Source: a virus. From it: a stretch of 63,203 nucleotides of DNA. The notes under the pieces are model-generated. The model was given only the letters and a program-made list of their open reading frames with translations. It searched no databases and was not told where the DNA came from. Shown in pieces: positions 1,639 to 62,900 of this stretch. The DNA is taken from positions 1 to 63,203 of the IMG/VR virus record IMGVR_UViG_3300005563_000005; one strand, written 5' to 3'. Numbering within the stretch: the first letter of the stretch is position 1; every line of letters starts with the position of its first letter. Both the position numbers and the translations under genes were made by a program.

Positions 1639-3018
1639 TTACCTGGAATTCGCTGATACACCGTTCATCTCCATTCGCGGAACGTCCATTTCATCCTTAC
1701 GCGCCGGCTGTTCGAGTTGCGATCGGTAGAACGATATTGCGTTCAGTCTCGCGTTCTGCTTCTTCGCCGCTGTGATCAGGTTTTCAAACAGCCTTCCCGT
1801 CCCTTCGAACTCCGCGCCGCCCATTTTGAGACTCGCGACATGCTGTGCATAATCTAATACCGGGTCGATCTGATCCCGTCCGATCTGTAGATAGTCGTTA
1901 TCGAGACCGATGAACGCGTTCGCTACGGTAGTCGCGCCGATACTATAGTTCAACGCTGACGTCGGCGTATCTGGTGTAGGGCCTACACAAAGCATGTTCC
2001 GACCCGACATTCCAATGAACTGCGGCGCGCCGATTGTCTGCTGCCAGTCCGGAAGGTAGCTATCCAAATCGTTCACACTCCCGACCCCAATCGTGATATT
2101 ATCTACATCTGAGGTCAATAACGATGGATAGATCGTGGCTAGTTGCACAAATTCGAGATATCGCTGTTCACAATAGGATGCTCGCGCGTAGTCTCGCGAC
2201 GGTCCATCAGTGCCTAGCAGATCGGCAAGAACACCGTATTTTATCGCCGGCGTCAGGTCGTCGGGAATTGGAATCACGACAGAAGATGCGGGATTTAGAA
2301 ACGATTGGGGAACTCCTGTTACAAGCAGAAGGTCTAATGTTCCGGTCGCTAGTGGTGGCGGAACCAAACGAAGGCTTAGAGGCGCAACTGGAAATACTGA
2401 GTAACAAGTCGGAACTCCCGGATTTTGTGTCGCGTCCGGCATATACGCCGCTGCCGCCCAGTCATCGATCCGTCCCAGTGGGAACGCTGAATTTGCTGGC
2501 GGACTTGCTGGCGGTTGTGCAATCCACGACGCACGGCGTACATCAAGAACTGAATCAGGTAACGTTACTAGATCAACTGGAGGCGGCGAAGCTGGAACGA
2601 AGGATTGCGTTATGCGAACACCTGTGTCGCCAAGGAAACGATTTACTCGTTGCCATAGCGCAGACTGCATCTGTGCGAGAGAAAATTGACCAGATCCACT
2701 CCAGGAAGTTATTGGATTTGACAACGTCGGTTCGATCAGCGCAGCGAGTACCTGATTCACAATCTGTACGTCGGTAACGTTATAGCCACAGACAGCTTTC
2801 GGTCCGACGGTCGCGAGATCGTAATAGTTGACGTCCGGTTCGGTCGGGAATGCGATCTTTTGCTTGTACGAACCGGTCAGCGCGTTATGAAGCCTTAGCG
2901 CTTCCGCGATACAGTCGTCGAGTTCGCGGGGTTGCGACCAATAGACGAGCTTTGAATCCTGTAGTCGTTGCGACAAAATCGTGCGTGCGTTTGCGAACGT
3001 GAGGTATTGATAAGGCAT
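1639..3018 (-). CDS. Probable neck/tail connector protein
   Basis: A 459-residue protein just upstream of the large tail protein. The N-terminus (YLTFANARTILSQRL) recalls the start of the protein at 7848-8924 (LLTFTQLYKEL), and both look like helical adaptor starts followed by beta-rich domains. Such proteins often form the ring below the portal in short-tailed phages. This is inferred from position and composition; no diagnostic motif was seen. No strong ribosome binding site precedes the ATG. A copy of the dispersed palindrome lies inside at 1976-1986. Confidence 0.6.
   Translation of the reverse strand: MPYQYLTFANARTILSQRLQDSKLVYWSQPRELDDCIAEALRLHNALTGSYKQKIAFPTEPDVNYYDLATVGPKAVCGYNVTDVQIVNQVLAALIEPTLSNPITSWSGSGQFSLAQMQSALWQRVNRFLGDTGVRITQSFVPASPPPVDLVTLPDSVLDVRRASWIAQPPASPPANSAFPLGRIDDWAAAAYMPDATQNPGVPTCYSVFPVAPLSLRLVPPPLATGTLDLLLVTGVPQSFLNPASSVVIPIPDDLTPAIKYGVLADLLGTDGPSRDYARASYCEQRYLEFVQLATIYPSLLTSDVDNITIGVGSVNDLDSYLPDWQQTIGAPQFIGMSGRNMLCVGPTPDTPTSALNYSIGATTVANAFIGLDNDYLQIGRDQIDPVLDYAQHVASLKMGGAEFEGTGRLFENLITAAKKQNARLNAISFYRSQLEQPARKDEMDVPRMEMNGVSANSR
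1976..1986. repeat. Dispersed palindrome GTAG-N3-CTAC, copy 1
   Basis: GTAGGGCCTAC, extended to a 15-base palindrome at 1974-1988, inside the connector-like gene. Ten exact copies of GTAG-N3-CTAC occur in the genome. Partial copies starting GTAGAGTC lie at 14356, 16747, 35078, 53362 and 59320. Confidence 0.75.
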
Positions 3019-3034
3019 AACGCACGCACGTTCT

Positions 3035-3232
3035 TTAGTACTTTACCGTATGGCCGGCGTTTTGCGGCGAGCGGATCGGCGCGGAAGACTTGCTGATTCC
3101 CGGCCGGGTCGTATTCGCTGCGACTGACGGGTTCAGCTTCGACTTCCCGACGAGACCGTGACTTTTGGACGCCATCGGAGACCGTACGCCGCCGATCATA
3201 GCCGCGCCGCCTTTGGATGAGATTTTGGGCAT
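3035..3232 (-). CDS. Small basic protein of unknown function
   Basis: 65 residues, rich in Lys, Ser, Gly and Pro and strongly basic. An AAAGGAG ribosome binding site lies nine bases before the ATG at 3232, which supports this frame over the overlapping longer one that would need a TTG at 3236. It sits between the 1058-residue exported protein and the connector-like gene, so it belongs to the late operon. A small basic head or tail accessory protein is possible. I do not recognise a family. Confidence 0.6.
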   Translation of the reverse strand: MPKISSKGGAAMIGGVRSPMASKSHGLVGKSKLNPSVAANTTRPGISKSSAPIRSPQNAGHTVKY

Positions 3233-6462: not shown

Positions 6463-7491
6463 TTAGTTTCCCCCAAGGTAAACGATCGGGAAAGACGTGG
6501 CTTGTGCGTTACTCCCTTGCAAGGTCGTAAACGTGCCAGTAAACGGGTTATTCCAGGTCAAGCTGCCGCCAGCGCCAGAAGACATAGCTGGATACGATCC
6601 AGCATAAGCAGCGTTCAGCGCGCCCATCATTTGAGTACTTGTTCCGTCGCCTGCCGCTGTAGTTCGAATTACGCTACTGTCAGAAGACCACGTGAAAAAG
6701 TAATCCTGATTCAGCGTGATATTAGTGCAACCAGTTATTGGAATCGTAATCGTTGTCGTCGCCGTTGTATCAGTCGTGACAGCCGAACAAACTAAAGTAG
6801 TTGGTATTAACGGACTGCCTCCAGGAACCCAGATTCCAACAATGATCCCTGTGCCGGCTGCACCAGCGCCTTTTATCGTCAACACGATGTTGTTGATAAC
6901 TGTAGACTTGGCAGAAAATAAAAACGACTGTCCGATATTCGCGCCGCAACCAGAGTCCGCACACGCAGGACCAGCCGTACCCGCCGCGTAGGTCGGGAAT
7001 CCGCCGCCGAGAAAGTTCGATGACCGCGCAGAACTCCCGCCAGCGGTTACCCAAGTTGCCGCGCAGATTCCGCTGCTTGGTGCCGCGAACTGAAGAACTT
7101 GGTTTGCCGGATCTCCCGCCGGCATCACGAGCTTACATCCCGACCCGGTAATCGTCGTCGGAGAGAACCAAGCGTAATTCTTGATTCCGGCGGTATCATA
7201 AAACGCATAACCGCCAGCGAGACCGGAACCGGCACCTGACGAGATCGTTCCGGTTACCGCTAGATTCCCGCTACTATCGACCGTCGGCGCGTTCGACGGC
7301 GTCTTGATATCCGCGCCGTTGTTCCCGATTACGACCACAGACGCCGCAAGCGCACCGGCCGTATGGGTGACCGTACCGCTTCCCCCACCGCCACTTGGCG
7401 GATTGACCGGCGGCGCGGGTTGCCCGAATCCACAGAACGAGAGGATCAGGAGTAACGCTGTAGACTCTACAATGTTTTTCATGTTCTTCAT
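6463..7491 (-). CDS. Sec-exported fibre-like protein
   Basis: 342 residues. The signal peptide ends GFG|Q (residues 21-24), followed by a proline/glycine linker (PPVNPPSGGGGSG) and a fibre-like segment of the type VTHTAGALAASVVVIGN seen in phage tail fibres. Cysteines come in pairs (PACADSGCG). AGGA lies nine bases before the ATG, which follows the upstream stop without a gap. It shares its signal-peptide style with the tailspike at 50586-53765. Role inferred: surface or tail fibre component. The palindrome copy at 7460-7470 encodes residues of the signal peptide. Confidence 0.75.
   Translation of the reverse strand: MKNMKNIVESTALLLILSFCGFGQPAPPVNPPSGGGGSGTVTHTAGALAASVVVIGNNGADIKTPSNAPTVDSSGNLAVTGTISSGAGSGLAGGYAFYDTAGIKNYAWFSPTTITGSGCKLVMPAGDPANQVLQFAAPSSGICAATWVTAGGSSARSSNFLGGGFPTYAAGTAGPACADSGCGANIGQSFLFSAKSTVINNIVLTIKGAGAAGTGIIVGIWVPGGSPLIPTTLVCSAVTTDTTATTTITIPITGCTNITLNQDYFFTWSSDSSVIRTTAAGDGTSTQMMGALNAAYAGSYPAMSSGAGGSLTWNNPFTGTFTTLQGSNAQATSFPIVYLGGN
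7460..7470. repeat. Dispersed palindrome GTAG-N3-CTAC, copy 2
   Basis: GTAGACTCTAC (13-base palindrome with flanks, 7459-7471), inside the signal-peptide codons of the fibre-like protein. Confidence 0.75.
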
Positions 7492-7842: not shown

Positions 7843-7847
7843 ACTCG

Positions 7848-13661: not shown

Positions 13662-15845
13662 CTAATGCGCTGACGTTCTCACCGTCGACCGAGTTCCGGC
13701 CGCTCCGGATTTCTGTTCCATCGTCGGCGGTTGCTGGAACGATTCTGGACGGCCGCGCTGACCATGACCTTTCTTTCCGCCGCCGCCAGCGCCGCCACCA
13801 GACATAGCTTGCGCGATTCTCGCCTGGATCTCTAGCTGTACCATGTACCGCTCGATTTCGTTCTTCGCTTCGCGCGGCGTCCCGTCTTCGTCCTTCGTCA
13901 TGCACGGACCGAAGTTCTTGACGTCGAACAGTTCCGCTTGCGTCCACCAGGACAGCGGGAAACCGACCTTCATAAGCTGAAGCATGAACAGCTTTCGCGT
14001 CATGGAGTTCATCTCATGTAGGCTGTACGGCGTGACGTTAAAGGTGAAATTGTTCTTGTGCCAGCGCGCGCGTTCAAAAGACGGCACGGACATAGGCGGC
14101 ATCATGACGTCTGGCGCGGACGGATGGAACGACCAGCTACCGTTGCCTTCCTGCGACATAGGAATCAGTTTTCCCGGTTCGTAGTCGAAGTCTTCTTCAG
14201 TTACGCCGTCCGGACCGAGCAATTGCATGCGGCGTTTCGCAGTCGCGAACTGGAACCAGTCGGATTTCCACATCTCGCCAAGCGCGCGGATAGCTTGCTC
14301 CATGTTGCGAGATTGATCCTTAATCAGCGGTCCCATCGCTTCGAGAAGCTTTTCTGTAGAGTCTCCACTAGGAAGTTGGCGAGCGCGCGACATAGCGCTG
14401 ACGTCCGCCACGCCCATTTGCTCTTTCATGATTCCAGGGATGATTTTGGAAATCATTTCGAGGATCGACGCGTCGGTCTGATACCACGCGATCGGCAGAA
14501 CCGGTACGAACTGAGACGCCGCGCCGTTCAACTGCATGTCGAGCGGAACGCGAAGTCCAGGGATACGCGGGTTCATTGACTGGATCTGAGACGTCGCGGT
14601 CGTGTTCCGGTCATAAAACGCCGACGGGTTCAGGCGTAGATTCATCTGGTCATTCACGCCACGGATAAGTTCGATCCCGACTTTTTCGAGAGACTGACCG
14701 TAACGCGTGACCGGGAAACCGAGGAAATTCCATGCCCAATCATCGGCGCGGAACTGCGCGGCCGGAATCTTGCCGTCCCAACGGTAAGAAGACTGATGCG
14801 TCGGGTCCGGGTTCATTATCGCCGTGTCAGTGGCAATAATAAGCCGGCGGTTCGGGTAGAAGCAGCAATCGGCGCGTAGAGCTTTTCGAACTTCTGGACG
14901 GCCACCCGAAAGGACTCTCCCCGTTGGTATCTCCTGACCGACGAAAGGTACTTCGTAAGACCAAGACGTTCCGTATTGTCCGTCCGGTCCGCACATTTTA
15001 ATCGGATTGCCCGTTTCATTAACTGAGTCGTCATCGACATAAATGTAATAAACGTCCGTCGTGTCCCACGTCGAAGCTTCTTCCGGTTGTCTCGCGCCTT
15101 GCGAGAATCGCTTCAGGACCGCCGACGCGTATTTGACCGCTTGCGCGATCACCATTCCTTTACCAGATGTTGATACGCGATTCGACTTGATAATGTCGCG
15201 CATGATCGGGAACATCCGCCAGACCTGATGAATCGGCATTTTCTTGCGAAGCGCGCACGCGTACGAGGTCTGCAAGTCGAGACCCGGAGCGAGACCAAGC
15301 GGGATTACGTCGAGCGGTCCGTAGACGTCCCAGACCTGATCGCCTTTACCGCGATAGTAGAAATTCGGGTCGTAGCGCGGTCCGATGTAACCGGTTCCAG
15401 CGGCGGCAGCGTACTGCCATGCGCCACGGATGCGGCGGTCCGCGAACGTCATGTTCTGCCACGCCATGAAGCCTTTGTTTAGGATATGGTTCTGGTCTTC
15501 GTACTCTTCGTTTTCGGCCTTAAAAGACGGGATGATTCGTAGGTTCGTCTGCGCGGCGACGATTTCCTTCGTGTTGCGCGCGGTCAGTTCCGTCTTCGCG
15601 TTTGAAAGCGATTGAACGTCCGTGACCAGGAATTCGCCGTTGATAATGTCTAGACCGTCCGGGATGTACTTGTACGCAGGCTGAAGGCGCAAGTACGACC
15701 GGCCGTCCTGGAGCATCTGTTGCGACCATGCGAACAGTTCGTCCGACGAACACGCTTCCCAAGACTGCTGATGCTGGTTGAATTCGAACGGTTTCGGACA
15801 GAGGTACGCGGTATCGATCGGCGAATGTCCAGGATGACGGTTCAT
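13662..15845 (-). CDS. Portal protein
   Basis: 727 residues, typical of the long portals of short-tailed phages. Position between terminase/lysis genes and scaffold/capsid genes fits. The N-terminal part has the usual helix-rich wing sequence (GLDIINGEFLVTDVQSLSNA, then many Asn/Lys-rich helices), the middle has the stem and clip, and the C-terminus is Gly-rich with a charged tail (GGGAGGGGKKGHGQRGRPE). It would form the dodecameric DNA channel at one capsid vertex. The call rests on size, composition and order. A partial dispersed palindrome lies at 14356. Confidence 0.8.
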   Translation of the reverse strand: MNRHPGHSPIDTAYLCPKPFEFNQHQQSWEACSSDELFAWSQQMLQDGRSYLRLQPAYKYIPDGLDIINGEFLVTDVQSLSNAKTELTARNTKEIVAAQTNLRIIPSFKAENEEYEDQNHILNKGFMAWQNMTFADRRIRGAWQYAAAAGTGYIGPRYDPNFYYRGKGDQVWDVYGPLDVIPLGLAPGLDLQTSYACALRKKMPIHQVWRMFPIMRDIIKSNRVSTSGKGMVIAQAVKYASAVLKRFSQGARQPEEASTWDTTDVYYIYVDDDSVNETGNPIKMCGPDGQYGTSWSYEVPFVGQEIPTGRVLSGGRPEVRKALRADCCFYPNRRLIIATDTAIMNPDPTHQSSYRWDGKIPAAQFRADDWAWNFLGFPVTRYGQSLEKVGIELIRGVNDQMNLRLNPSAFYDRNTTATSQIQSMNPRIPGLRVPLDMQLNGAASQFVPVLPIAWYQTDASILEMISKIIPGIMKEQMGVADVSAMSRARQLPSGDSTEKLLEAMGPLIKDQSRNMEQAIRALGEMWKSDWFQFATAKRRMQLLGPDGVTEEDFDYEPGKLIPMSQEGNGSWSFHPSAPDVMMPPMSVPSFERARWHKNNFTFNVTPYSLHEMNSMTRKLFMLQLMKVGFPLSWWTQAELFDVKNFGPCMTKDEDGTPREAKNEIERYMVQLEIQARIAQAMSGGGAGGGGKKGHGQRGRPESFQQPPTMEQKSGAAGTRSTVRTSAH

Positions 15846-20888: not shown

Positions 20889-21104
20889 CTAAGAATACAT
20901 GAGATAGTGACGCGGACGGAGATCCGGCGGTATCTCGTCGAACGCTGACTGGCATTCGTCCAGGACCATCGGAATCGTCATGTACGCGGCGCGCTGGTCG
21001 TCAGTCAATTGCACGGCCGGGTCGCCGGCGGCGCGCATGAGCAGTTCGTTATAGACGTCCAGCCAAACGCGATGTGCTTCAATCTTCGGATTCGTCGTCG
21101 TCAT
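20889..21104 (-). CDS. Unknown 71-residue protein upstream of terminase
   Basis: Helical, slightly acidic (WLDVYNELLMRAAGDPAVQL). It overlaps the end of the preceding gene by 26 bases and ends six bases before TerL, so it is tightly coupled to the packaging genes. It could be a packaging accessory or a very small TerS-like protein. No helix-turn-helix is evident. Confidence 0.5.
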   Translation of the reverse strand: MTTTNPKIEAHRVWLDVYNELLMRAAGDPAVQLTDDQRAAYMTIPMVLDECQSAFDEIPPDLRPRHYLMYS

Positions 21105-22011
21105 CGTCTTCGTCCTCTTCGTCGTCGTCCTTATCTTCCGGACCTTCGTCTAAATCCTTTCGGTGCAGTTGCGCGTCGTTGAAGTCCGCCTGCATGATCT
21201 TCGCCATAGAGACGATCTCGTCGTCCATATCGAGCAGACCGGTTTTACTACTGACCGACGCGTCAGACTTCGCTACGGACGTCGCGTTTGCGTTCGCTGT
21301 AGGCGTATTAAAGATCGTGACGGGAGAACCGCCGCGTCCAGGCTGTGGCATCATACCCGCCGCTTTCATGAATAGTTCCGCGTGCTTATAGTTGTCTGGC
21401 GATTCAGTTGCGAACTGCGCGGTTTTGGCTAAGACTTTGTGTCGCTGGAACGACATGACCATTGACGCTTCTGCGCTTCCTTCCTGCCAGACTTGGCGAC
21501 TAACCCAAGAGATCAGGTCAGAAGGTTGGACAGAAGACAGTTCACAGAGTTGTTCTGGTGACGCGGACCGGCGTTCAGACGGCGGAAGGGACTTCCAGAC
21601 AGTAAGATAGCGCATCGCGTCTTTATTGCCCGTGCGCGCTTCGAGGTCGACGTACATGATGTAGTTCCTCCATGTAGGATCTACATAGCGAAACGCGACG
21701 GCAAGCGGCGTAGGTCCGAAAGCGAGAGGTTCAGAGGAACGGTCAGAAGCGAGGTCGACGTCGGTAACGACCGCTGGAGGTAATACTACCGCCGGTTCAG
21801 GCGGTCGCGGGTTCTGCGTAATCGGAATAACTGATTCGCTACTGCGCGACCGGGAACCGGACGGCTTTTTTGCATCGGCTGTTGATGTTACTGTTGCCGT
21901 ATTATCGCGCGTTCGCTTGCGCTTTGGCAAGCTGGAAAGCTTTGGCGACGACTTCGTCCGCTTCGTCTTCGCTGAGTCCCGCGAGACGTTCGACCGTTCC
22001 TGTTTCTTCAT
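21079..22011 (-). CDS. Candidate terminase small subunit
   Basis: 310 residues from the ATG at 22011, which overlaps the upstream gene by 110 bases; an in-frame ATG at 22101 also exists. The order is Ser/Lys-rich basic N-terminus, a helical core (QPSDLISWVSRQVWQEGS, HKVLAKTAQFATESPDNYKH, AELFMKAAGMMPQPGRGG) of the kind found in TerS-type proteins, and a very acidic C-terminus of Asp/Glu runs. Its position just before TerL supports a small-subunit role. The similarity is by eye only. Palindrome copy 21674-21684 lies inside. Confidence 0.45.
   Translation of the reverse strand: MKKQERSNVSRDSAKTKRTKSSPKLSSLPKRKRTRDNTATVTSTADAKKPSGSRSRSSESVIPITQNPRPPEPAVVLPPAVVTDVDLASDRSSEPLAFGPTPLAVAFRYVDPTWRNYIMYVDLEARTGNKDAMRYLTVWKSLPPSERRSASPEQLCELSSVQPSDLISWVSRQVWQEGSAEASMVMSFQRHKVLAKTAQFATESPDNYKHAELFMKAAGMMPQPGRGGSPVTIFNTPTANANATSVAKSDASVSSKTGLLDMDDEIVSMAKIMQADFNDAQLHRKDLDEGPEDKDDDEEDEDDDDDESED
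21674..21684. repeat. Dispersed palindrome GTAG-N3-CTAC, copy 3
   Basis: GTAGGATCTAC, arms extend to ATGTAG/CTACAT (21672-21686); inside the candidate small terminase gene. Confidence 0.7.
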
Positions 22012-22920: not shown

Positions 22921-23760
22921 TTAGCGGTTATTCCCAAAGCCTAGTTTCGTGCGCGAACCGCCGCCGTTCGTCGCGAGTCCAGCAGGACCGAGGTCGTACG
23001 TCGCGGCGACGGAACCGTACTTCTCGCCGGCGCGGTCGCCGAACTTCGACTTGCTGGCGGTATGCGTGCCGGCGGTAACAGTCATCCCGCCTTGCTTCAT
23101 GCGGCCTTGACCGGTCAGGTCAATGTCAATCGCGCCGTTGTCGACAGGGATTTCCTGTTCGACGGTCCCATTGACCGGCGGCGGACCAGCGAAGATGTAG
23201 CCTTCGGCGACACAGCCGCGACGACCGGACGAGTCAACAGTCAAAGCTGCGGTCGCGTCGTCTCCGTTCGCTGGCTGTGGGAGACGAACTCCCGCCGCTT
23301 CGCGCCGTCGGTTCGTCTCTTCGACAGTAGACTCTACAATGTCTACAATGTCCGCGACTTGGACATGACCGCCGATAGACCTATCGCCATATCCTGGACG
23401 CGCGATCGGAAGGTCATGCTGCGACCGGATCTGGTCTGGCGGCTGTCCGCCTGGAATCGGCGCGGCGTTTACGACCGCTGCGAGTTCGACGTGTGGCTGT
23501 TGCGCCGCGATCGCGTTCTGTACGGACACGTCGCCGAGAATCGACATGACCTCTGGCGGCGACGCGACCGGGACCGTGCCGCCATGAAACATCGCTACGT
23601 CAACCGTCACCTTCAGGTCGATCTTCGCCATTGGAAGCGTCAGGTGCTTCTGCATGACGGGTTGCGAAGAGAGTAGCTGGCGGAACCAGTCGACGAGAAT
23701 CTCGCGGACTTCCTCGCCGTTGAGGTCGTTGTAGGTGACTAGAGACGGTTGTCGTGCCAT
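22921..23760 (-). CDS. First gene of the late block, unknown 279-residue protein
   Basis: The ATG is at 23760 with no Shine-Dalgarno sequence; a TATAGT box lies 11 bases upstream, so the transcript may have almost no leader. The protein has an N-terminal helical part (EVREILVDWFRQLLSSQ) and a long Gly/Pro/Ala-rich remainder. Palindrome copy 23327-23337 lies inside and encodes part of a DIVDIVES repeat. Family not recognised. Confidence 0.6.
   Translation of the reverse strand: MARQPSLVTYNDLNGEEVREILVDWFRQLLSSQPVMQKHLTLPMAKIDLKVTVDVAMFHGGTVPVASPPEVMSILGDVSVQNAIAAQQPHVELAAVVNAAPIPGGQPPDQIRSQHDLPIARPGYGDRSIGGHVQVADIVDIVESTVEETNRRREAAGVRLPQPANGDDATAALTVDSSGRRGCVAEGYIFAGPPPVNGTVEQEIPVDNGAIDIDLTGQGRMKQGGMTVTAGTHTASKSKFGDRAGEKYGSVAATYDLGPAGLATNGGGSRTKLGFGNNR
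23327..23337. repeat. Dispersed palindrome GTAG-N3-CTAC, copy 4
   Basis: GTAGACTCTAC, followed by two direct copies of TCTACAATG (23333-23350), inside the first late gene. Confidence 0.75.
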
Positions 23761-25632: not shown

Positions 25633-26217
25633 ATGCGCGATAGCCACTACCAAATCGAACTGACAGACCGCCGAACAGTTAACCATCTGATCGAAGCGCA
25701 TTACTTGCGCCGATGGCCTGGAGTCGTGGTTGCGATTCTGAGTCTGTTAGATGATGACGTACCGATCGGCTGCGTCGTGTTCGCGCTACCGCCGCGAGAG
25801 ACGAACAAACGCTACGGTGTCAACTGTGCTTGGGAACTAGCAAGGCTGTTCATCGCTGACGGCACGCCGAAGAACACGGAGACATGGTTTGTCGCGCGCG
25901 CGCTGCGATGGGTACGGAAGAACAGGCCGGACGTCAACCTGATTGTCTCGTACGCCGATCCTGCCGCCGGTCACGACGGCACGATCTACCGCGCTGGTAA
26001 CTGGATAGCCGATGGTATGACTGACCAGGAGCGACGCACGCCGCGATTCGACTATGCCGACGAGAATACAGGCAAGCTGTATTCACGTCGGTCTCATGTT
26101 CCGGACGAAACGTCGATAGTACGAGTGCCTCGCGTGTCGAAGTTCCGGTTTATCTACTGGATGAACCGCAGTCACGAAAAACTGAGACAGAAATCAATTG
26201 ACGAAAAAAGTCAATAA
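25633..26217 (+). CDS. Mom-like DNA adenine modification protein (GNAT fold)
   Basis: 194 residues. The signature of the Mom family is present: WELARLFIADGTPKNTETWF (residues 67-86), then SYADPAAGHDGTIYRAGNW (106-124), preceded by an HYLRRWPG segment and G-C-V-V-F-A-L-P-P. In phage Mu, Mom converts adenine to N6-methylcarbamoyl adenine and protects DNA from restriction. The same reaction here is an inference from family membership. ATG at 25633 without a strong ribosome binding site, 27 bases after the upstream gene, as in the tightly controlled Mu gene. The AT-rich, Lys/Ser-rich tail ends just before the non-coding region. Confidence 0.85.
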   Translation: MRDSHYQIELTDRRTVNHLIEAHYLRRWPGVVVAILSLLDDDVPIGCVVFALPPRETNKRYGVNCAWELARLFIADGTPKNTETWFVARALRWVRKNRPDVNLIVSYADPAAGHDGTIYRAGNWIADGMTDQERRTPRFDYADENTGKLYSRRSHVPDETSIVRVPRVSKFRFIYWMNRSHEKLRQKSIDEKSQ

Positions 26218-29005: not shown

Positions 29006-29654
29006 CGAACTGATCCCGACCGCGACCTGTCCGCCGGACCTCATGACCGGCGGACAGGATCTTTTCGCGCGCGTCGTATCCGCAGCGTTTTCTAGCCTGT
29101 CCGATAACTCTCGTAGAGTCTACACGAGTCGTCTGTCAGCGTTTCGCGCGTCTCCGTTCGGAGGTCGACTAGACCGCGAATCCGTCGCAGCGTACGTCCG
29201 TTCATTGTCGACCTCTGGCGCATCATCTCAAGTCATAAATCAGACGATTAGCGCGATTAAGCGCTTCGCGTACGAGGCGTCAGAACTCGGATGGATAGAT
29301 GAGCGGTCGTCCGCTGCGATCAGCCGCATAAAGACAAAGCGCACAAAGGGAATAAGGACAGGTAGATGGCTGACTGTCGACCAAGTCCGCGCACTAATCG
29401 CGAGTATCGACAGGTCGACGCCTATCGGCCGTCGCGACGCGGCACTAATGGCACTACTGATCGGTTGCGGTCTGAGACGTTTTGAAGCAGTGGACCTCGT
29501 GACCGCACAATTCGAAGCTAGTACAGCGGACAGACCGGCACTATTGCGGAACATCGCAGGGAAAGGGAACAGGACCAGGACGGTCGCGGTTCCACGTTGG
29601 GCGGAAAAACTAATCTCAGATTGGATAGGAGAAAAGGAAAATGATCGTACTTAA
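28998..29654 (+). CDS. Tyrosine recombinase, N-terminal fragment of a split enzyme
   Basis: 218 residues containing the SAM-like core-binding domain (about 20-105) and the first half of the catalytic domain. Arg160 in GCGLRRFEAVDL is the first catalytic arginine; Lys189 in AGKGNRTRTVAVP is the beta-hairpin lysine. The chain ends right after WAEKLISDWIGEKEN. The HxxR, second His and tyrosine are missing here but are present at 29874-30158, in the same reading phase 219 bases further on. With that fragment the total is 312 residues, the normal length of an integrase. Palindrome copy at 29113. Confidence 0.85.
   Translation: MSNELIPTATCPPDLMTGGQDLFARVVSAAFSSLSDNSRRVYTSRLSAFRASPFGGRLDRESVAAYVRSLSTSGASSQVINQTISAIKRFAYEASELGWIDERSSAAISRIKTKRTKGIRTGRWLTVDQVRALIASIDRSTPIGRRDAALMALLIGCGLRRFEAVDLVTAQFEASTADRPALLRNIAGKGNRTRTVAVPRWAEKLISDWIGEKENDRT
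29113..29123. repeat. Dispersed palindrome GTAG-N3-CTAC, copy 5
   Basis: GTAGAGTCTAC, inside the recombinase N-terminal gene. Confidence 0.75.
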
Positions 29655-30158: not shown

Positions 30159-30307
30159 GACCTACAATCGACCCGTATGACCGCACAAAGCACAAAGTCG
30201 ACGTCCTTCCGCCGGCCGCGCATTCATGGCAGTTCCGCGCCTGGATCGCACTAAGCGCGACCGCGTCGCGATTCTTTGACTGGTTCTTTGGCGTTCGGAC
30301 AAGCTGA
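30155..30307 (+). CDS. Small protein, 50 residues, coupled to the recombinase
   Basis: The ATG overlaps the recombinase stop (ATGA). Product begins MRPTIDPYDRTKHKVDVLPP and ends in an aromatic segment (FFDWFFGVRTS). It overlaps the 3' end of the opposite-strand gene by 57 bases. Plausible from the coupling; family unknown. Confidence 0.45.
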   Translation: MRPTIDPYDRTKHKVDVLPPAAHSWQFRAWIALSATASRFFDWFFGVRTS

Positions 30308-30928
30308 CCGAGCGGCGCGAATCAGCTTCGCATTGATCGTTCCTAGTCCGCCACGAGCGAGACTGGACGTCTCACCGCAGCAATCGCACAAATACGTCCA
30401 GTCTCCGGTATCTGTCCGACCGAGAATAAGCAACGTGCGGCCTTTCCTAGTCACAAAATGACCAGTCCAGTCCTTATCGGTTTTCTTCGCGCGACGCTTG
30501 CAGCCGCAGCTATAAGGCGGACAACGGTATGCGCTCGCGTATGGCACTAGGACGTCCTCACGACCGCACACACAGCGACATTTGACGTCCTGCCATGTCC
30601 AGCGACCGTAACGGTTAAAGAACCCTGGACCGATGATTGTCAGAAGCGAATTCCGAAGTGGTTCTCCAGGATGAAAGAAGAACGATTCCTGAGACATTTC
30701 GTGCTCGTACGCGTCGCGATGATACCGCCGCATGTAGCGTCGGCCGCGTGGCGACATACGGTTCGCTTCCATTTCTTCGTCTGTATACCCGTTCGGATGC
30801 CGGACAGGTTCGGTCTGGTTATTCTGTATGGTAGTTGATCGTTTTTTGAATCGTTCGACTAGTTCTTCGTCGATCTGATAGTCAGCTTCACTGAAATCGA
30901 GTTCACCGGGTAGGAGATGTTCATTCAT
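30251..30928 (-). CDS. Opposite-strand protein with two CxC/CxCG zinc knuckles, possible DNA-binding regulator
   Basis: 225 residues from the ATG at 30928. Two similar units, NRYGRWTWQDVKCRCVCGRE ... SCGCKRR and RTDTGDWTYLCDCCGETSSL, match the zinc-binding DNA-recognition module often found before HNH or AP2 domains in homing endonucleases. No HNH is present, so a regulator is more likely. It is the only minus-strand gene within the early block. A TACGAT box seven bases before the ATG suggests a leaderless transcript. Confidence 0.6.
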   Translation of the reverse strand: MNEHLLPGELDFSEADYQIDEELVERFKKRSTTIQNNQTEPVRHPNGYTDEEMEANRMSPRGRRYMRRYHRDAYEHEMSQESFFFHPGEPLRNSLLTIIGPGFFNRYGRWTWQDVKCRCVCGREDVLVPYASAYRCPPYSCGCKRRAKKTDKDWTGHFVTRKGRTLLILGRTDTGDWTYLCDCCGETSSLARGGLGTINAKLIRAARSACPNAKEPVKESRRGRA

Positions 30929-30935
30929 GGAATAG

Positions 30936-30941
30936 ATCGTA
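30936..30941 (-). promoter_or_regulatory. Extended -10 box for the opposite-strand zinc protein
   Basis: Minus-strand TG-A-TACGAT, ending seven bases before the ATG at 30928, placing the transcript start at or next to the start codon. No clear -35. Confidence 0.35.
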
Positions 30942-31094
30942 TCACGAAAAACTATCACTCTCCATGTACGCTAAAGCTATAGATTGAGGGTAGGCGAATG
31001 AAAGTAGAAAGTAGCGAGTCGGTTCGCTTGGTCGTTCAGTCTCTCTACTTAGCATAAATGCTTGGTGTTTGTTTTTTCTTCTCTTATACTACAG

Positions 31095-31116: not shown

Positions 31117-31160
31117 TGAAGGGTGGTTGTTTTTCGACCGCACAATAGAACGTTAGAAAG

Positions 31161-31171
31161 GTAGAGTCTAC
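31161..31171. repeat. Dispersed palindrome GTAG-N3-CTAC, copy 6, over a ribosome binding site
   Basis: GTAGAGTCTAC lies between the AAAGG ribosome binding site and the ATG at 31174. It is the only copy outside coding sequence and is the best candidate for a true regulatory site. Confidence 0.8.
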
Positions 31172-31173
31172 AG

Positions 31174-31603: not shown

Positions 31604-32077
31604 ATGGCAATAAAGAGACAGCGTAAGCCAGACGGTACGGTCACGGCACAAATCGACCTCCCGCCGATTAACCCGATCGTGCCGCGACGCGCGCCTGGAG
31701 TCATGGGACGGCGTCCGTACGCGTTCGGAGACCTGAACTATCAAGTCCTCGCGCCGGCCGTCGGAGTCTCGCCTACGCATCTCGGAAGAATCCTGAACGG
31801 GATTAACCGCCCGTCCATGACCGTCGCGTCCAAACTCGCCGCGATGTTCGGCTGGACGCTTGATCAGGTCAACCAGATTTACGAACGAAAGAATTCTGCG
31901 AACTCTACGAATTCGACTACCGCCACGTCGACCGCCACGACAACGAATCCGAACACGAAATCAGCGAAAGGATCAGATAACCGCAATGCCACGAGTAGAA
32001 ACCGTGCTACAAACACAAAACGAAACGCCAATCCCGTTCCCGCCGCCGCCGGAACCGGTCGCGGTTCCCGCCGGTAA
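31604..32077 (+). CDS. XRE-like helix-turn-helix DNA-binding protein
   Basis: 157 residues from ATG 31604. Residues about 42-90 form a helix-turn-helix of repressor type (LNYQVLAPAVGVSPTHLGRI, then LNGINRPSMTVASKLAAMFG). The C-terminal 60 residues are low-complexity Asn/Thr/Ser/Arg. The last 92 bases overlap the ParB gene in another frame. Nearly leaderless transcript from a strong promoter, as is usual for repressor genes. The best candidate for the lysogeny or copy-control repressor and for the protein that reads the dispersed palindrome; both are inference. Confidence 0.7.
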   Translation: MAIKRQRKPDGTVTAQIDLPPINPIVPRRAPGVMGRRPYAFGDLNYQVLAPAVGVSPTHLGRILNGINRPSMTVASKLAAMFGWTLDQVNQIYERKNSANSTNSTTATSTATTTNPNTKSAKGSDNRNATSRNRATNTKRNANPVPAAAGTGRGSRR

Positions 32078-33239
32078 ATCCGTCTTCACAATCCCGGCGA
32101 ATGAAATCGTAATCCCGGCTGAACACCGTCTGTCCCGTCCCGGTCCGCTACCACCGAACGAACAGAAGAAAATCGACGCGTTTGCGCAGTCGATTCGCGA
32201 AGTCGGACAGATCGAACCGATTAAAGTCCGTTGGGACGCAGGCGGCGAACTCTGGCATCTCGTCGCTGGTGGCCGTCGCGTGCTCGCCATGCGTTCAATT
32301 CGTCCGGACTACCCCGTAGAGGCGATTGAAGACTTCGGAGACGTTCCAGCGCGCCGTATCGCGATTCACGAGAACATCCACCGGCGCAACTATACGCCGC
32401 TTCAGTTCGCGACGCTCTGCCGCGACTTGCAACTCGAAAACGGCTGGACAGGCACAAAAGAACTGTCTGAATACATCGGCGTCAGTCGCGCGCAGATCAG
32501 CCAGCATCTCAAACTGCTAACGAAACCGGTCGATATGCCGCAAGAGACGTACGAAGACCTGCTCGCGCGGCTAAATTCCGGCGTCATCGGTGCGGACACG
32601 GCTTTCTTCGCGTTGACGCAGATCAAAGAAAAGGAATTGCCGGCGGTCGTTCAGCGCGCGACAGAAAACGCGATCGCGGAAGCGCTGGCGGAACCAGCGA
32701 CAGAATCGGAACCGCCGCCGACAGGACTAGCGCCGACAAATCAGACGCAGAAACTAAGTCCGGCGGTCGGTAAGGGTTCGAAGTCAGGAGAAAAGAAACC
32801 GGCCGTCAAGCGTGACGCAAAGTCGACTACCGCGAACGTTCCCGAACCCGAATGGATGCGGAAGCAACGCGAAGCGTCGAAACAACGCAAGCTCGAAAAG
32901 GTCAAGGCTGGCAGTCTGACCGTCGCGCAGTTGAAAGCCGCCGCGAAAGAACTGGACGCGATTAAGACTCCCGCCGCGCGTTCGCTGTCCGACCTGTCGA
33001 CTCTCGTCTCAAAGAAACTCGCGACGCCGGCGTATCCCGATCCGATGCGGAACTTTCTAACCTTCCTGGTCGCTGAATGGCTTCCCGGCGAAGCGGACGA
33101 CGACGCAGTCGTACAGCGCTGGAAAGAGATCGCGATCATGGTCGAAGACTCCACGAGGCGCAATGCCAAGATCGCGCCGCATAAGCCGGCCGCGACTAAA
33201 GCGACCAAAACGACCACGAAGAAAAAGTCACGTAAGTAG
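31986..33239 (+). CDS. ParB/Spo0J-type partition protein
   Basis: 417 residues from ATG 31986. ParB N-terminal domain about residues 30-130: EIVIPAEHRLSRPGPL, IREVGQIEPIKVR, LVAGGRRVLAMRSI and the signature HENIHRRNYTPLQFATL. Helix-turn-helix at about 155-180 (LSEYIGVSRAQISQHLKLL). The C-terminus is basic (ATKTTTKKKSRK). ParB proteins bind palindromic parS sites, and the N-terminal domain binds CTP. No ParA gene was found, so it is an orphan ParB, as in many phages and phage-plasmids. It may segregate an episome or regulate genes. Confidence 0.85.
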   Translation: MPRVETVLQTQNETPIPFPPPPEPVAVPAGKSVFTIPANEIVIPAEHRLSRPGPLPPNEQKKIDAFAQSIREVGQIEPIKVRWDAGGELWHLVAGGRRVLAMRSIRPDYPVEAIEDFGDVPARRIAIHENIHRRNYTPLQFATLCRDLQLENGWTGTKELSEYIGVSRAQISQHLKLLTKPVDMPQETYEDLLARLNSGVIGADTAFFALTQIKEKELPAVVQRATENAIAEALAEPATESEPPPTGLAPTNQTQKLSPAVGKGSKSGEKKPAVKRDAKSTTANVPEPEWMRKQREASKQRKLEKVKAGSLTVAQLKAAAKELDAIKTPAARSLSDLSTLVSKKLATPAYPDPMRNFLTFLVAEWLPGEADDDAVVQRWKEIAIMVEDSTRRNAKIAPHKPAATKATKTTTKKKSRK

Positions 33240-37478: not shown

Positions 37479-38108
37479 ATGCCGATACTCATCTCAGAAA
37501 CCGAAGTCAAGCTCGAACGCGCTGACCTGGACCGCCGGATCGTCCTAGCGCGCGATGTAGACCCTACAACCGGGCTGATCGTCCCGCCGGCGCGTCGACC
37601 CGGTCTTCATCTGTCCGGACTGCTGAAGTACATCGCAGAAGTCTCTAAAGTGACCGCGCGACTACAAGAGATCGCGGACGAAGAATATCCTCTTCGCTGG
37701 CTGATGGGGCACGCGGTAGAAGAGTTCCTCGCGTCGCTCTACCCGCTGATGGTCTGGCAACCGGGAGAAGTCGTTGACCCGGTTATTATGAACCCGGACG
37801 GCGTCAGCTTCGAAGAGTTAGACGGTCCGAATGAACAGGTCATAGAGGAATTCAAACACAACCGGTCGAAGCGTTACGACGGCCGCGAATTCCTGACTAA
37901 GAAATGGCTGTTCAAGCATCAAGGCATGGGTTACTGTCTCGGTTACGGCGCGCGGTTCGTCCGCTGGCACGTCCTCTACTCGATGGAATGGCCGGACCCG
38001 GTTTACGTCAAGTATCTGTACCAGTTCACGGACGAAGATTTAGCAGGGATGAGACGAATCGTCGACAGTAATCGCGACGCCGCGATTCGAAGGGGATACG
38101 CAGAATGA
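37479..38108 (+). CDS. PD-(D/E)XK nuclease (RecB/Cas4-like exonuclease)
   Basis: 209 residues. Recognisable features: WLMGHAVEEFLASLYP (conserved helix with Glu), a metal-binding Asp region near GEVVDPVIMNPDG, EEFKHNRSK as the E-x-K motif, and KHQGMGYCLGYG as the Q-x-x-x-Y helix. No cysteine cluster as in Cas4. It probably works with the Sak4-like ATPase two genes downstream in recombination. Palindrome copy at 37557. Confidence 0.7.
   Translation: MPILISETEVKLERADLDRRIVLARDVDPTTGLIVPPARRPGLHLSGLLKYIAEVSKVTARLQEIADEEYPLRWLMGHAVEEFLASLYPLMVWQPGEVVDPVIMNPDGVSFEELDGPNEQVIEEFKHNRSKRYDGREFLTKKWLFKHQGMGYCLGYGARFVRWHVLYSMEWPDPVYVKYLYQFTDEDLAGMRRIVDSNRDAAIRRGYAE
37557..37567. repeat. Dispersed palindrome GTAG-N3-CTAC, copy 7
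   Basis: GTAGACCCTAC with matching T/A flanks, inside the nuclease gene. Confidence 0.7.
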
Positions 38109-43145: not shown

Positions 43146-44618
43146 GTGAGTCTCTTCGGCGGCATAACTCTACCCGGTCAGCCAGACCTCGATAATATCG
43201 CGCGCCTGGATCTAATGATCCTACCTCATCTGAACAAGATGACACGCTACGGCATCGCGTTCGACCCGGAATACCTTCAGGAGTTAGACGTCGAGTTCAG
43301 CCGCGAACGTGATGAACTCGCGAAGCAGATCAGTAGCTACGTTCCTCGCGAAGCGCTAGATAGCTTCGCGAATCAGTCGACGCTACGTGACGATAACGGT
43401 AGCGAGGACGAACCAGCGGACGTCTCGTTTAACCCTGCGAGCGCAGATCAGACGCGAAAGCTCGTATTCGAACTTCTGTCCGTCGGCCGCGACAAGAAAC
43501 TAAAGCGGACCGGCGCGGGCGAGATTTCAACCGGCCGCAAGAACCTGGACCTGTGTCGTCAGGACCATCCGGTAATCCCGTTGATTATTCAGTACCGCGA
43601 GTACTCTAAACTGATCTCCGGGTTTATCCGCGCGCTACCGAAACTCGGTAAGCTCCATCCTCGCGGTCCGTCTTGTCCGATCTGCGAACTGTACCATGTA
43701 GACCCTACATGGCGGCTGCATACGACGTTCACGACGACTTCCGCCATTACCGGGCGTCTCTCATCCCGCCGGCCGAACCTGCAACAGATTCCGATCCGGT
43801 CGAAACTCGGGTCTCGTATCCGCGCCGCGTTCTTAGCCTCTAAAGGCTGTAAGCTTGTCTCCGTCGACTTCTCCCAGATGGAAATCCGCGACCTTGCGCA
43901 TCTGGCGGACGCGACGTCCATGCTGCGAATCTACGAAGCGGACGGCGATATTCATCTGAACACCGCAATGAAGTCGTTCGGGATATCCGATCCGGCGAAA
44001 GTCGACAAATATCTTCATCGTCTGCCTAGCAAACGTGTTAACTTCGGAATTCAGAACGGAACGCAGGGAAAAGGACTACACGCACAGCTAGTGTCGGACT
44101 ATTGGGCGGCTGGCATGATTCCGCCTCCGTTCCTGACGATCGAATGGTGTAACAAATTCATTGAGGACTGGCATGGTAATTATCTGGAAGTACAGCCATA
44201 TTTCGATACTCAATATTATCGAGCGCGTAGATATGGCTTCGTTTGGAACCCTTGGGGTCGTACGCGTTACATCCCACAGGTCAAGTCCACACTTGAATAC
44301 AAACAGTTCGAAGGTCTGCGCGAAGGACAGAACTTCCCGGTCACGAGTTCAAACGCTGAACAGACAAAACTCGCAATGGCTGAACTTGAAGTCGAATTTG
44401 ATCGCCTTCGTTCGTCCGGCGTCTGGTGTTGGCCGCTGCTATCGATTCATGACCAGGAGATCGCGGAAGTAGAGGAAGACTACGCGGAACCTATCGGCGG
44501 ACTCATGACGTCCGTGTTCGAACACGTTATGGATGACCGTCAGACCGGCGAACGTCTCTGGCGTTGTCCAATCAAATCCGATTGCGAGATATTAGACCGT
44601 TGGAAAGCGAAAGACTAG
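43146..44618 (+). CDS. DNA polymerase, family A, polymerase domain only
   Basis: 490 residues from a GTG at 43146. Thumb/palm entry TGRLSSRRPNLQQIP (202-216); motif A SVDFSQMEIRD with Asp241 and Glu246; motif B RLPSKRVNFGIQNG with Arg292, Lys296 and Phe300, but Asn304 where Tyr is usual; motif C SIHDQEIAEV with His435 and Asp436, but Gln437 in place of Glu. No exonuclease domain of its own; that function is the upstream gene. This is the phage replicase. Palindrome copy at 43698. Confidence 0.9.
   Translation: MSLFGGITLPGQPDLDNIARLDLMILPHLNKMTRYGIAFDPEYLQELDVEFSRERDELAKQISSYVPREALDSFANQSTLRDDNGSEDEPADVSFNPASADQTRKLVFELLSVGRDKKLKRTGAGEISTGRKNLDLCRQDHPVIPLIIQYREYSKLISGFIRALPKLGKLHPRGPSCPICELYHVDPTWRLHTTFTTTSAITGRLSSRRPNLQQIPIRSKLGSRIRAAFLASKGCKLVSVDFSQMEIRDLAHLADATSMLRIYEADGDIHLNTAMKSFGISDPAKVDKYLHRLPSKRVNFGIQNGTQGKGLHAQLVSDYWAAGMIPPPFLTIEWCNKFIEDWHGNYLEVQPYFDTQYYRARRYGFVWNPWGRTRYIPQVKSTLEYKQFEGLREGQNFPVTSSNAEQTKLAMAELEVEFDRLRSSGVWCWPLLSIHDQEIAEVEEDYAEPIGGLMTSVFEHVMDDRQTGERLWRCPIKSDCEILDRWKAKD
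43698..43708. repeat. Dispersed palindrome GTAG-N3-CTAC, copy 8
   Basis: GTAGACCCTAC; arms extend to CCATGTAG/CTACATGG (43694-43712), the longest copy. Inside the polymerase gene. Confidence 0.75.
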
Positions 44619-45440: not shown

Positions 45441-46877
45441 TTACTTTACGTCCGTCTGACCTGTCTGATCCGTCTGACCTTCCTTCTTTTCGCGGTTGTA
45501 TTCTACAATACCAGACCCGGACTTAAGAACGTTTTTCGGTATTTGCCGTGTAGCGGTTTTGACTATAGATAATGACTTCGATTTACTGGCTGCGTCTAAA
45601 GCAATTGCGAGTCGTGATTTGATCGCGGGGTTTTCAAGCATCCGGCGGACAATCAATCCCGCCATGACTCCAGGTCCGCCGCCGCCTGGAACAGTATGTT
45701 CGCCGATCGCGTAACCTCCAGCGCCAAATAGCGTCATAGAGGTAACCTGCCTATTCATCTCCCTCTTAGCGAATCGCTGCAATTGATCTTCCAAACCAAT
45801 CAACGCGCCTTCGCGTGCGTTCAGAGATTTGATCTGTGGGTAGACGTTCTCTAACTCTTCCTTGAGCGCCTTCGATATTTCCTTCTGAACTCTTATATTC
45901 AGTCCCGGATGTTGGCCTGGATCCCAAGCAGTTGACCGCGCGGTCCGAATCGTCTCGTACGCCTGCTTTTTAATCGCTTGCGCGTCGCCGGTCGAGATCG
46001 GATCGACGGCTAGTCGCAATTCGCGCAAGGTCATATCCTCTGGATGGATTACGACCATGCCCTTTTGCGTACGTTGCAGCATCGCTTTTGGGTTGCCATG
46101 CTGTAATAGGAACTGACGTTCCATCTCGTCGATTTGCGCCACGAATTCACGGCCGTGCGTCGGATCTTGCTGCCAGCGCGAACGCAGCACGTTTAGCTTC
46201 TGTTCGACATTATTAACATACTGTCTCGGACTGATGTTCGCCGGCGAGTTCTGAATCGTGCGTTCAACCGTATCGTTCAACTGATTGATTCGGCCGCGAA
46301 CAACATCCGCCGCTTTCTCACCTAGCGGGATTTTCTCTTTGATACCGATTCGAACCGTCCCTAGCGCCTTCGCTTCGTTCGTCCCGGTCGGTTTCAACGC
46401 GCTTTGGTAGAGTCTACTACTGGTCTCGGGACTGAATAGTTTCCCTAAAACCTTCGACAGCGCGCCGGATACGACTCTGCCGCCTGCCTCCGCGCCGCCT
46501 TGTTCCGCGCCGGCTATACCGATCCGCTTCGCAGCGTCCGTGCTCGTCTGTGGCGCGTCTGACTCGCCGCGTACGCGTTCTGTAATCTGTTCCGTCGCTT
46601 CGCCGGCCGCGCCGCCTAGCGCCGCCATGCCGACCGCTGGCAGGAATCCCATGCCGCCGGTCGCGAGACCGAAGCCTACGCCGCCGGCGACAGGTAACGC
46701 CGCTTTACGCAGTGCTTTATAGTCGATCGGTTCGCCTTGCGCTTTGTACGGTTTCTCGTCGCTTTTCGTCGGTTCCGGACCGGTTAGTCGGTCGAAGATA
46801 TCGCCAGTCGGTGTCGCGCGGCCGGAACCTTTCGAAGGCGACGACGTCGAATCGATCTTGTCAAAGATATCCGGCAC
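45441..46877 (-). CDS. Internal virion/ejection protein candidate
   Basis: 478 residues from a GTG at 46877. It starts with two DIFD-type motifs (PDIFDKID, GDIFDRLTG) found in phage structural proteins, then a Gly/Ala-rich hydrophobic stretch (about 55-95), long helices, and a Gly-rich membrane-like segment near residue 395. The C-terminus has a GQTDQTGQTD repeat. Such large amphipathic proteins are ejected with DNA in short-tailed phages. Inferred. Palindrome copy at 46407. Confidence 0.6.
   Translation of the reverse strand: MPDIFDKIDSTSSPSKGSGRATPTGDIFDRLTGPEPTKSDEKPYKAQGEPIDYKALRKAALPVAGGVGFGLATGGMGFLPAVGMAALGGAAGEATEQITERVRGESDAPQTSTDAAKRIGIAGAEQGGAEAGGRVVSGALSKVLGKLFSPETSSRLYQSALKPTGTNEAKALGTVRIGIKEKIPLGEKAADVVRGRINQLNDTVERTIQNSPANISPRQYVNNVEQKLNVLRSRWQQDPTHGREFVAQIDEMERQFLLQHGNPKAMLQRTQKGMVVIHPEDMTLRELRLAVDPISTGDAQAIKKQAYETIRTARSTAWDPGQHPGLNIRVQKEISKALKEELENVYPQIKSLNAREGALIGLEDQLQRFAKREMNRQVTSMTLFGAGGYAIGEHTVPGGGGPGVMAGLIVRRMLENPAIKSRLAIALDAASKSKSLSIVKTATRQIPKNVLKSGSGIVEYNREKKEGQTDQTGQTDVK
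46407..46417. repeat. Dispersed palindrome GTAG-N3-CTAC, copy 9
   Basis: GTAGAGTCTAC, inside the 478-residue ejection-like protein gene. Confidence 0.75.
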
Positions 46878-59926: not shown

Positions 59927-59991
59927 ATAGTCGTACAGTTACTTGTTTATTTGTTTATATACGAAATTCCAAGTCTATTGTAATCAATGAT

Positions 59992-62900
59992 TTAAATCCT
60001 AGCGCCAGATGCGCCGCCGCCGCCAGAGACGTCGCCGAACGGCCGGACGCGCTGATACGGTCCGTTTGAACCCCACGATTTAACCAGGAATTCGATATCG
60101 CGTTCGTACAGTTGCAATCCGGTGCCGCTGACGGTCAACTGCCAGTACCGACCTTTAAGCGGCGGACAGACGAAATATGTCTTCTGCGGACTGTTCGCCG
60201 CGCCTAGCGTAGCGATCGTGACCGGCGGTTGTCCGTCGACAATGACCGAGACGACGCCACCGGCCATCGCAGCCGCGAACGCTAGCCATAACTCGCGACT
60301 GTGTAAATACCCGTTCTGTCCAAGCGCGGTCGGTTGACTAACCCAGTAGTTCGCGATCTCCGGTTCGAGTTCGAAGACCCATTCGCTATCTTGCCAGTAG
60401 CGCCAAGGTACGCCGTCTAACGGGACGATCTTCATCAGATGCGCTTTGAACGGCGTCGGCCACGAGTAAGGTAACGTTTCCTCACCGTTATGTTTGATCG
60501 TAAGGATAGGACCGGCAATCCCGCCTTCATAGAGAATCTGAATCTGTTTCGTCGCGCCGAACGTGTCCGCGTGCAAACGGATGCCCTGAACGAATTTATA
60601 GTGCGTAGTTCCACCATTCACCCAATTAACCGCGAGCGCGCCGCCATACTCCGGTTCGTTATTGTAGAGATATTGCGTGTCCGGCCAATACCGCCACTTC
60701 ACATCCACGTCCAACGGAACAATTCTCATCTGGTGAGAATAGACCGGCGTAAAGTAGTACGGTAAGGTCTCTTCTCCGTTGTGGTTAATGGTTATCGTCG
60801 TCGGACTCGCGCCGCCATCGAACTGAATCTGGACTCGCTTCGCCTGTCCGAACGTATCCGCGTGCAACAGAATCCCGTTGACCCATTTATAACCCGGATG
60901 ACCGCCGTCTACCCAGTTGACCGCGAGTTCGCCGCCATACTCGGGTTCATTATTCCCTAGCCATTCGGTATCCGGCCAAAACCGCCAAGGAACCGCATCA
61001 AGCGGGATAATGCGGATCTGGTGTCCGTAGAACGGTTGCCAGTAGTACGGTAGCGTCTCTTCTCCGTTATGGTTGATCGTGATCGTCGCGCCGAGTTGAC
61101 CGCCGTCGAATTCGATCCGGATCTGTTTGTCCTGTCCGAAGGTGTCCGCATGGAGCTTGAACCCGTTTAACCATTTGAATTGAACCGCGCCGCCGTTGAC
61201 CCAGTTGACAGCCATTGCGCCGCCGTACTCGGGTTCGTCGTTCCCGATCCATTCCTCATCCATCCAGTCGTGCCAAGGAACGTTATCAAGCGGAACTAGC
61301 CGTATTTCGTGACAGTAGATCGGCGGGAAGTAGTACGGTAGCCGCTGTTCGCCGTCGCAGTTGACCGTTAGCGTCGTGCTCGTCTGCCCGTTGTCATATT
61401 CGAGCTTGAACGTTTTGTCCTGTCCGTACGTGTCCGCGTGAATGACGACGCCGTTGACCCACTTGAACTTTTTCGTCCCGCCGATCTGCCAGTCTGACGG
61501 CCGTGCGGTCGTGTCCGTAGGCAACGGTAGATACGACGGTTGCCATTCGTAGAGATAAACCGGTCCCTGACCGGTTATCATCGCCGTGAAGTTCTTATGA
61601 ATAATCGGAAGGTCTTCGTACTGCGGAGGATCGATCAGGTCGAAGATCGTCTGCCGGCGCGCGGACGCAAGCGGCACGATTTTTAGAATTCCCGCGACGA
61701 GCAGATTATCGAAGAACGTCAGGATATTCGGCTGCGACAGGTTCGAGTCCGTACCGTAGTCCAGCATGACGTCGCCCCATTGTTTTAGTGCGCGGCTGTC
61801 GCCTCCGTCAACAACTGGCGGTAGAATCGTCCAGCCGACAGGTCCGCCGTAGTCGCTATTCCCGTTTGTCAGTTGGTAGACGTTCCCGTCTTCGCCGCCG
61901 ACCATCGTCTTTGGGTTTGCGATGCCTTGCTCCAGTACGAATATCGACGCTTGCGGCGTGTACTGGTCTTTCCGCCAGCCTTTCGAAATGACCGAGTAGA
62001 CTAGCGCTTCGACAACACCTGAAGTGTTAAGATACGTCGCGTAGACAAATGACTCCGAATAGCCAATCCGAAGAACCGACGCAGCAGAGTAGTTCGGAGG
62101 ATAAATCGTTTGCCCTGCGATGGAGACAGGAACTCCAGGAATCCCTTGCTGTCCTTGTATCCCTGCATGAGGAAATAACGGGTATAGGCTGTCTGCCGTC
62201 AGGTTTTCCGCCGTCGCGCCAAACCCGTACACATATATCCCGTCCGGACCCCACCAAAACAACATCTTCCGTTTTGCATCAAACGCCCACGGACCGGCGA
62301 GTCCCTCGACTCCCGCCAGACGATACGCCGCGTACGGATTAATTCCGCCCGGTGTAGACTCTACGCGGTACAGACTCGTCGACGTAAAGACATAGTTACT
62401 GCCTTCCGCGTAGAACCCGTTCAGCGCTGGTTCAGACGGACTCGTAATCTCGATATATCCGCTATCCGACGCGCCGTCCGGGTTGTCGACATTGCTGAAG
62501 TACATCAGTCCAGGATTCAGCGGGTCTCCGACCGCGCAGATACGGTTATTCTGGCTATCGAGCCACGCGCCGTAGATCGGCTGACCTTCGATCGTCGCTT
62601 CAGGGATTACGAAGTCGTACGTACCGGACGAAGGCAATGGTACGGACTGTTCAAGCGTCAGATCCGTGTCCGACTGTGGCGGCGCGAACAGGCTATACGT
62701 GTTCCCGCCGAGAATGATCGACGTCCCACGCAGCCAGCGCGTATTGAATCTATCTCCGCTTGCCCAACCGACAGACGTACCGACGACGACCGCAGTCCCG
62801 CGTTTCGGCGTATCCGTGACCGGCCACGGCTGGTAACAGGTAACTTCTAGCGCGTCCGCGATCTGCGCGGCCGCTTCAGTCGTCGTATCGACAAACGCCG

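Follow-up and report, generated by a model that had tools for sequence, protein, structure and literature searches.

The phage studied here, which we call W, is of soil origin and is recorded as IMGVR_UViG_3300005563_000005; its whole 63,203-nt stretch is referred to below as the window. An exact repeat of 70 bp is found at both ends (1-70 and 63134-63203), which suggests that the genome is complete and either circular or circularly permuted. Among its early genes W encodes an XRE/Cro-type helix-turn-helix (HTH) protein followed by an orphan ParB-family protein, an order kept in 10/10 ParB-bearing phages, and a gene on the other strand diverges from this operon (Table 1). A sigma-70-like sequence, TTGACA-18-TATGCT, lies directly upstream of the XRE gene (31560-31604), and TTGACT is present at a comparable place in the relatives G002, G004, G020 and G021. 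The tyrosine integrase (28998-30158) is split into N-part and C-part ORFs, which an 82-aa ORF separates; G005, G016, G020, G021 and G026 show the same interruption with other cargo (28 nt to ~1.1 kb), and the integrase is one ORF in G002, G022, G011, G017 and G019. The window also encodes a Mom-like DNA modification protein (25633-26217; PF25680, 6.7e-27) for which the relatives have no homologue. Rfam searches gave no hits.

Table 1. Palindromic sites and associated genes in the window (W).
Feature	Position	Strand	Remarks
Site TGTAGGGCCTACA	1975..1987	.	within gene 1639-3018(-)
Site TGTAGACTCTACA	7459..7471	.	perfect 13-mer; codon 7 of gene 6463-7491(-)
One-mismatch copy GTAGAGTCTCC	14356..14366	.	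further ones at 3913, 16747, 19906, 35078, 53362, 59320
Site TGTAGGATCTACA	21673..21685	.	within gene 21079-22011(-); position common to W and eight other phages
Site AGTAGACTCTACA	23326..23338	.	within gene 22921-23760(-)
Site CGTAGAGTCTACA	29112..29124	.	within integrase N-part gene 28998-29654(+); G022 site in same column
Divergent gene	30251..30958	-	opposite XRE-ParB operon; homologues in G002, G004, G005, G020, G021
Site GGTAGAGTCTACA	31160..31172	.	sole intergenic exact copy; start of XRE and ParB operon, facing divergent gene 30251-30958(-)
XRE/Cro-type HTH protein	31604..32077	+	Pfam HTH_3 3.8e-7; directly upstream of ParB, overlapping
Orphan ParB-family protein	31986..33239	+	proposed site binder; ParB_N with G-x-R-R motif, HTH, linker, C-terminal domain
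ParB Arg168 codon	32487..32489	+	recognition helix (SRAQISQH); proposed base-reading residue
Site TGTAGACCCTACA	37556..37568	.	within gene 37479-38108(+)
Site TGTAGACCCTACA	43697..43709	.	within DNA polymerase A gene; position also occupied in G002, G005, G020, G021, G022
Site GGTAGAGTCTACT	46406..46418	.	within gene 45441-46877(-)
Site TGTAGACTCTACG	62353..62365	.	within gene 59992-63189(-); position common to G001, G002, G008, G022

An earlier note, made from the sequence alone, had listed ten exact copies of a dispersed palindrome, GTAGN3CTAC, and all ten are found at the starts that it gave. This count exceeds chance, as the note had claimed: dinucleotide shuffles predict 0.44 copies (maximum 3 in 100), and genome-wide permutation of synonymous codons, with proteins and codon usage preserved and intergenic copies held fixed, gave a mean of 1.46 and never more than 4 in 300 shuffles, the very comparison that the note had recommended. 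The repeats in W are thereby confirmed. The extended 13-mer TGTAGN3CTACA occurs 5 times against 0.03 expected from codon shuffles, copies with one mismatch are likewise enriched (10 versus 2.1), and GTAGAGTC, counted on both strands, is present 12 times versus 2.8 expected, in line with the earlier figure of at least 11 against about two for the core 8-mer. Most copies of the 11-mer in W are flanked by T..A, and the full unit is the 13-bp palindrome TGTAGASTCTACA, whose central base is S (G or C) in nearly all aligned copies. Intervals of 2-7 kb had been reported, but the exact copies are in fact spaced by 1.7-15.9 kb; the two largest gaps (7.5-21.7 and 46.4-62.4 kb) hold five one-mismatch copies.

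Nine of the ten exact copies lie inside genes, and both the minus-strand structural arm and the plus-strand early arm contain such copies. The note had placed them in different reading frames, which is only partly the case: two phases are used, but 7/9 in-gene copies share one, reading V-[E/D/G]-[S/P]-T, and 2/9 have the other. The prevalence of V-[DE]-[SP]-T is explained by the third phase, which would create a TAG stop. The proteins concerned are unrelated and orthologues rarely keep the peptide, so that the constraint acts on DNA, as had been claimed. When orthologous columns are compared, most sites are private to one phage, and its neighbours encode different residues there. Three coding positions are shared between phages, in DNA polymerase A (six phages, W included), in gene 21079-22011 (nine) and in gene 59992-63189 (five). 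At two shared positions both outer bases have changed in G008, from T..A to C..G, and the polymerase position of G021 has an inner variant of its own. These alignments show site turnover with selection for the DNA sequence, and copy number and spread are conserved more than position; the positional conservation that the note had wished to see examined holds at three coding positions, but most sites move between phages. Finally, the copy at 31161-31171 does cover a ribosome-binding region, but that of a 123-aa ORF (31174-31545), the XRE start lying ~430 bp downstream, and not one just before the XRE and ParB genes. A site is found within 300 bp (<=300 bp) upstream of the XRE-ParB operon in 5/10 phages, against 0.6 expected (P = 0.0002).

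About forty related contigs, to which the G numbers refer, emerged when viral contigs were scanned for terminase, ParB and capsid. Between 5 and 24 palindrome copies per phage are spread along the whole genomes of W and its relatives; exact TGTAN5TACA copies number up to 22, in G022. In a de novo palindrome scan, TGTAG-N3 or TGTA-N5 ranked first or near first in W, G001, G002, G004, G005, G009, G020, G021, G022, G026 and G033. The last of these contigs (L127-L128) carries another dispersed palindrome in addition to the TGTAG one: its 28.9 kb contain 10 copies of TAACNNGTTA, versus 0.1 expected. Even spacing of sites was significant in G005 alone. The near-complete ParB-less relatives G011, G017, G019, G027, G030 and G034 have no TGTAN5TACA at all, and no excess of GTAN5TAC was found in G028, also near-complete and without ParB. 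Thus relatives do keep the sites, as the note had asked, in most carriers of the XRE-ParB module, and the sites are absent from these seven module-less phages. ParB-less near-complete relatives have the same virion genes as the motif-bearing ones, and a motif of the host was rejected because same-family phages without the module have no motif. Motif and ParB presence are associated (Fisher P = 0.0014) in a set of phages too small and too related for tree-corrected tests. Moreover, the early module of about a dozen genes co-occurs with the motif as a whole, so that presence and absence alone cannot identify the binder. Outside this group, W had no DNA match to cultured phages, tblastn of two ParBs gave weak hits only, on unannotated records, and capsid scans for an integrated prophage in host genomes gave remote hits only, in one Acidobacteria MAG. 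No dispersed palindrome was found in 61 other phage ParB loci of ~20 kb each, a length at which power is low.

What points to one of the candidate binders is the change of the motif itself. In G032, CGTAG-N3-CTACG ranks first (10 copies versus 0.07 expected), the motif of this phage being CGTAGASTCTACG; CGTA-N5-TACG is suspected in G016, more weakly (3 copies versus 0.66, P = 0.03), and the inner bases differ in G004 and G021. The specificity drifts symmetrically between relatives. Among the 26 ParB columns that are invariant in eight T..A phages, only R168 is substituted in both of the two C..G phages compared, G032 and G016 (V, T), two further changed columns being alignment gaps. No XRE column tracks the switch from T..A to C..G, and four columns of the wHTH-ATPase do so, none of them in its wHTH region. 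Arg168 aligns with R173 of Caulobacter ParB and Q158 of Noc, which read base 1 of parS and of NBS, respectively (Jalal et al., PMC7383237). In the ParB of G021 a Ser/Thr of that recognition helix is replaced by Lys. Across five phages with an identical motif the mean identity of the recognition helix is 0.68 for ParB and 0.33 for XRE; Mantel tests of helix similarity against motif distance were not significant (ParB, P = 0.13; XRE, P = 0.33). Because a recognition-helix residue covaries with the outer base pair, ParB is singled out as the candidate binder, and we infer with good confidence from this covariation that it binds the sites. The two C..G phages suggest the more specific link of Arg168 to the outer base. 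Among the proteins that the note had put forward, ParB is thus favoured and the LuxR-type protein ruled out, since W alone has such a protein and motif-bearing relatives have no homologue.

The third of them, XRE, is a possible binder or partner. Phage XRE proteins are classic repressors, and a Cro/CI-like repressor binding here would make the sites the operators and stoperators of immunity, with another role for ParB. Its encoding together with ParB in all ten ParB-bearing phages, and a motif drift like that of stoperators in cluster A mycobacteriophages (PMC6550527), would fit; the divergence of its helices among the five same-motif phages and the failure of any of its columns to follow the switch make it an unlikely binder in our view.

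Turning back to ParB as the binder, in the W protein (AF2 mean pLDDT 73.5) ParB_N is followed by an HTH domain and, after a disordered linker, by a C-terminal domain; the N-terminus is predicted to be disordered. It shares with KorB-type proteins a ParB-fold N-terminal domain and a central HTH domain. By sequence its nearest matches are Spo0J/Noc and not KorB (profile matches of 1e-20 and 1.4e-9, respectively). In Foldseek searches with the AF2 model, the best TM-score among ParB-family matches was that of KorB, 8qa9_B (TMt 0.72, rmsd 2.9), from the structure of the KorB-KorA-DNA complex. Of the CTP-site residues, the G-x-R-R and E/A-N motifs are present. The phosphate motif of the phage ParBs is G-x-R-R without Glu, and most members also miss the third Arg of GERRxR; the KorB motif, GARRYR, is likewise without Glu and KorB still hydrolyses CTP (PMC11790492). 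Neither element of a canonical ParABS system was found, the parA gene being sought in W by a deviant Walker motif search and Pfam scans of selected window proteins, and the ParA-binding motif (LG-R/K-GL) in eight ParBs.

In temperate phage genomes, ParB-type sites are dispersed in the sop system of N15, and N15 and P1 are partitioned as plasmids. A dispersed centromere, through which ParB would partition or condense an extrachromosomal prophage with the help of a host ParA, would account for a ParB-family protein with dispersed palindromic sites. We consider this improbable, somewhat more so than binding by XRE, given the negative searches for ParA and its binding motif and a tyrosine integrase in most of these phages, which suggests integration. 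N15 itself has SopA and only four sites, whereas the W lineage has 5-24 sites, an integrase and no ParA that we could find.

The closest match for ParB and its sites is KorB-KorA of plasmid RK2, in which KorB-CTP clamps slide from the operator OB to promoters and are held there by KorA (PMC11790492). The KorB operator TTTAGCCGCTAAA has 13 bp with an S centre (PMC2680271), and the phage sites are, like OB (TTTAGCSGCTAAA), 13-bp palindromes with an S centre, in several dispersed copies both near and distant from promoters. Both systems pair a ParB fold lacking the phosphate-motif Glu with a small HTH protein alongside, and it is on KorB (8qa9) that the model of W ParB superposes best. There are also differences: the present system belongs to phages, no ParA (IncC) gene was found in it, the outer bases of the site differ, the phage ParB is closer to Spo0J/Noc in sequence, and XRE is a putative counterpart of KorA. 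Noc/NBS and chromosomal ParB/parS share with the phage the ParB fold, the same specificity residue and, for Noc, dispersed palindromes, and the parS half-site TGTTTCAC begins with TGT as the phage half-site does. Unlike Noc/NBS, the phage system is phage-encoded and has sites of 13 bp and not 16 bp, and it may lack the membrane-binding role of Noc. The closest phage precedent is the stoperators of cluster A phages (L5, Bxb1), with many 13-bp sites genome-wide and a consensus that drifts between relatives. A stoperator is an asymmetric site that is oriented with transcription, and its repressor binds as a monomer (PMC9283540, PMC6550527), whereas the W site is a palindrome and its proposed binder is ParB, the cluster A repressor being of another family. 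The earlier comparison with stoperators or parS-like sites was apt as to dispersed protein-binding sites, for which the relatives give good support; the palindromic W site does not have the asymmetry that marks classical stoperators, and parS-like sites are the best fit, because helix covariation singles out ParB and the length and symmetry match the KorB operator.

Overall, we find it reasonably probable that the palindromes are dispersed binding and loading sites for the phage's own ParA-less, KorB-like ParB. A 13-bp S-centred palindrome in many dispersed copies, a site near the operon in five of ten phages, a small HTH neighbour and a divergent gene together make up a KorA-KorB-like anatomy, and on these grounds we propose silencing by a clamp. 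In this scheme a ParB dimer would recognise TGTAGASTCTACA via its HTH domain, and its Arg168 would read the outer end of each half-site, as the covariation suggests. By analogy with KorB, ParB would then bind CTP, close into a clamp and slide off the site; XRE would act as a KorA-like roadblock and partner, and the two would silence promoters genome-wide, including that of their own operon, probably in lysogeny. We hold this clamp and silencing hypothesis, for instance in lysogeny, with slightly more doubt than belief. ParB could instead organise DNA in the lytic phase, as a replication focus or in compaction or packaging. Its sites occur in structural as well as replication genes and its gene lies in the early block near an ATPase, a helicase and DNA polymerase; the over-representation of sites beside the XRE-ParB operon, and a KorB that does not condense DNA in vitro (PMC11790492), make this the least probable of the roles considered for protein-bound sites. 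A restriction/modification site was rejected, the Mom-like gene not being common to the relatives. That chance, codon use or a conserved VEST/VDST peptide makes the repeats can be practically dismissed despite the prevailing V-[DE]-[SP]-T reading and the few positions common to orthologues, as codon shuffles fall short of the observed count, orthologues that keep the peptide often encode it differently (GTC GAG TCC ACT in G005), intergenic copies are common and module-less phages have no motif.

In conclusion, our results put forward, as a tentative proposal held more loosely than clamp silencing as such, a phage lineage that may run lysogeny and immunity by a ParA-less, CTP-dependent ParB clamp with many genome-wide sites, the help of XRE and a divergence of specificity through changes in a few recognition-helix residues. 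A 2025 survey reported many ParA-less ParBs on phages and other mobile elements, and for most of these orphan ParBs the DNA site and role are not known (PMC12704722). The lineage of W offers candidate sites, at least three natural specificities and a residue predicted to read bases, and the role of a phage orphan ParB therefore becomes directly testable. If the silencing hypothesis is true, long-range repression by a sliding clamp in the style of KorB would enter phage biology as a mechanism different from both CI-type operators and stoperators.
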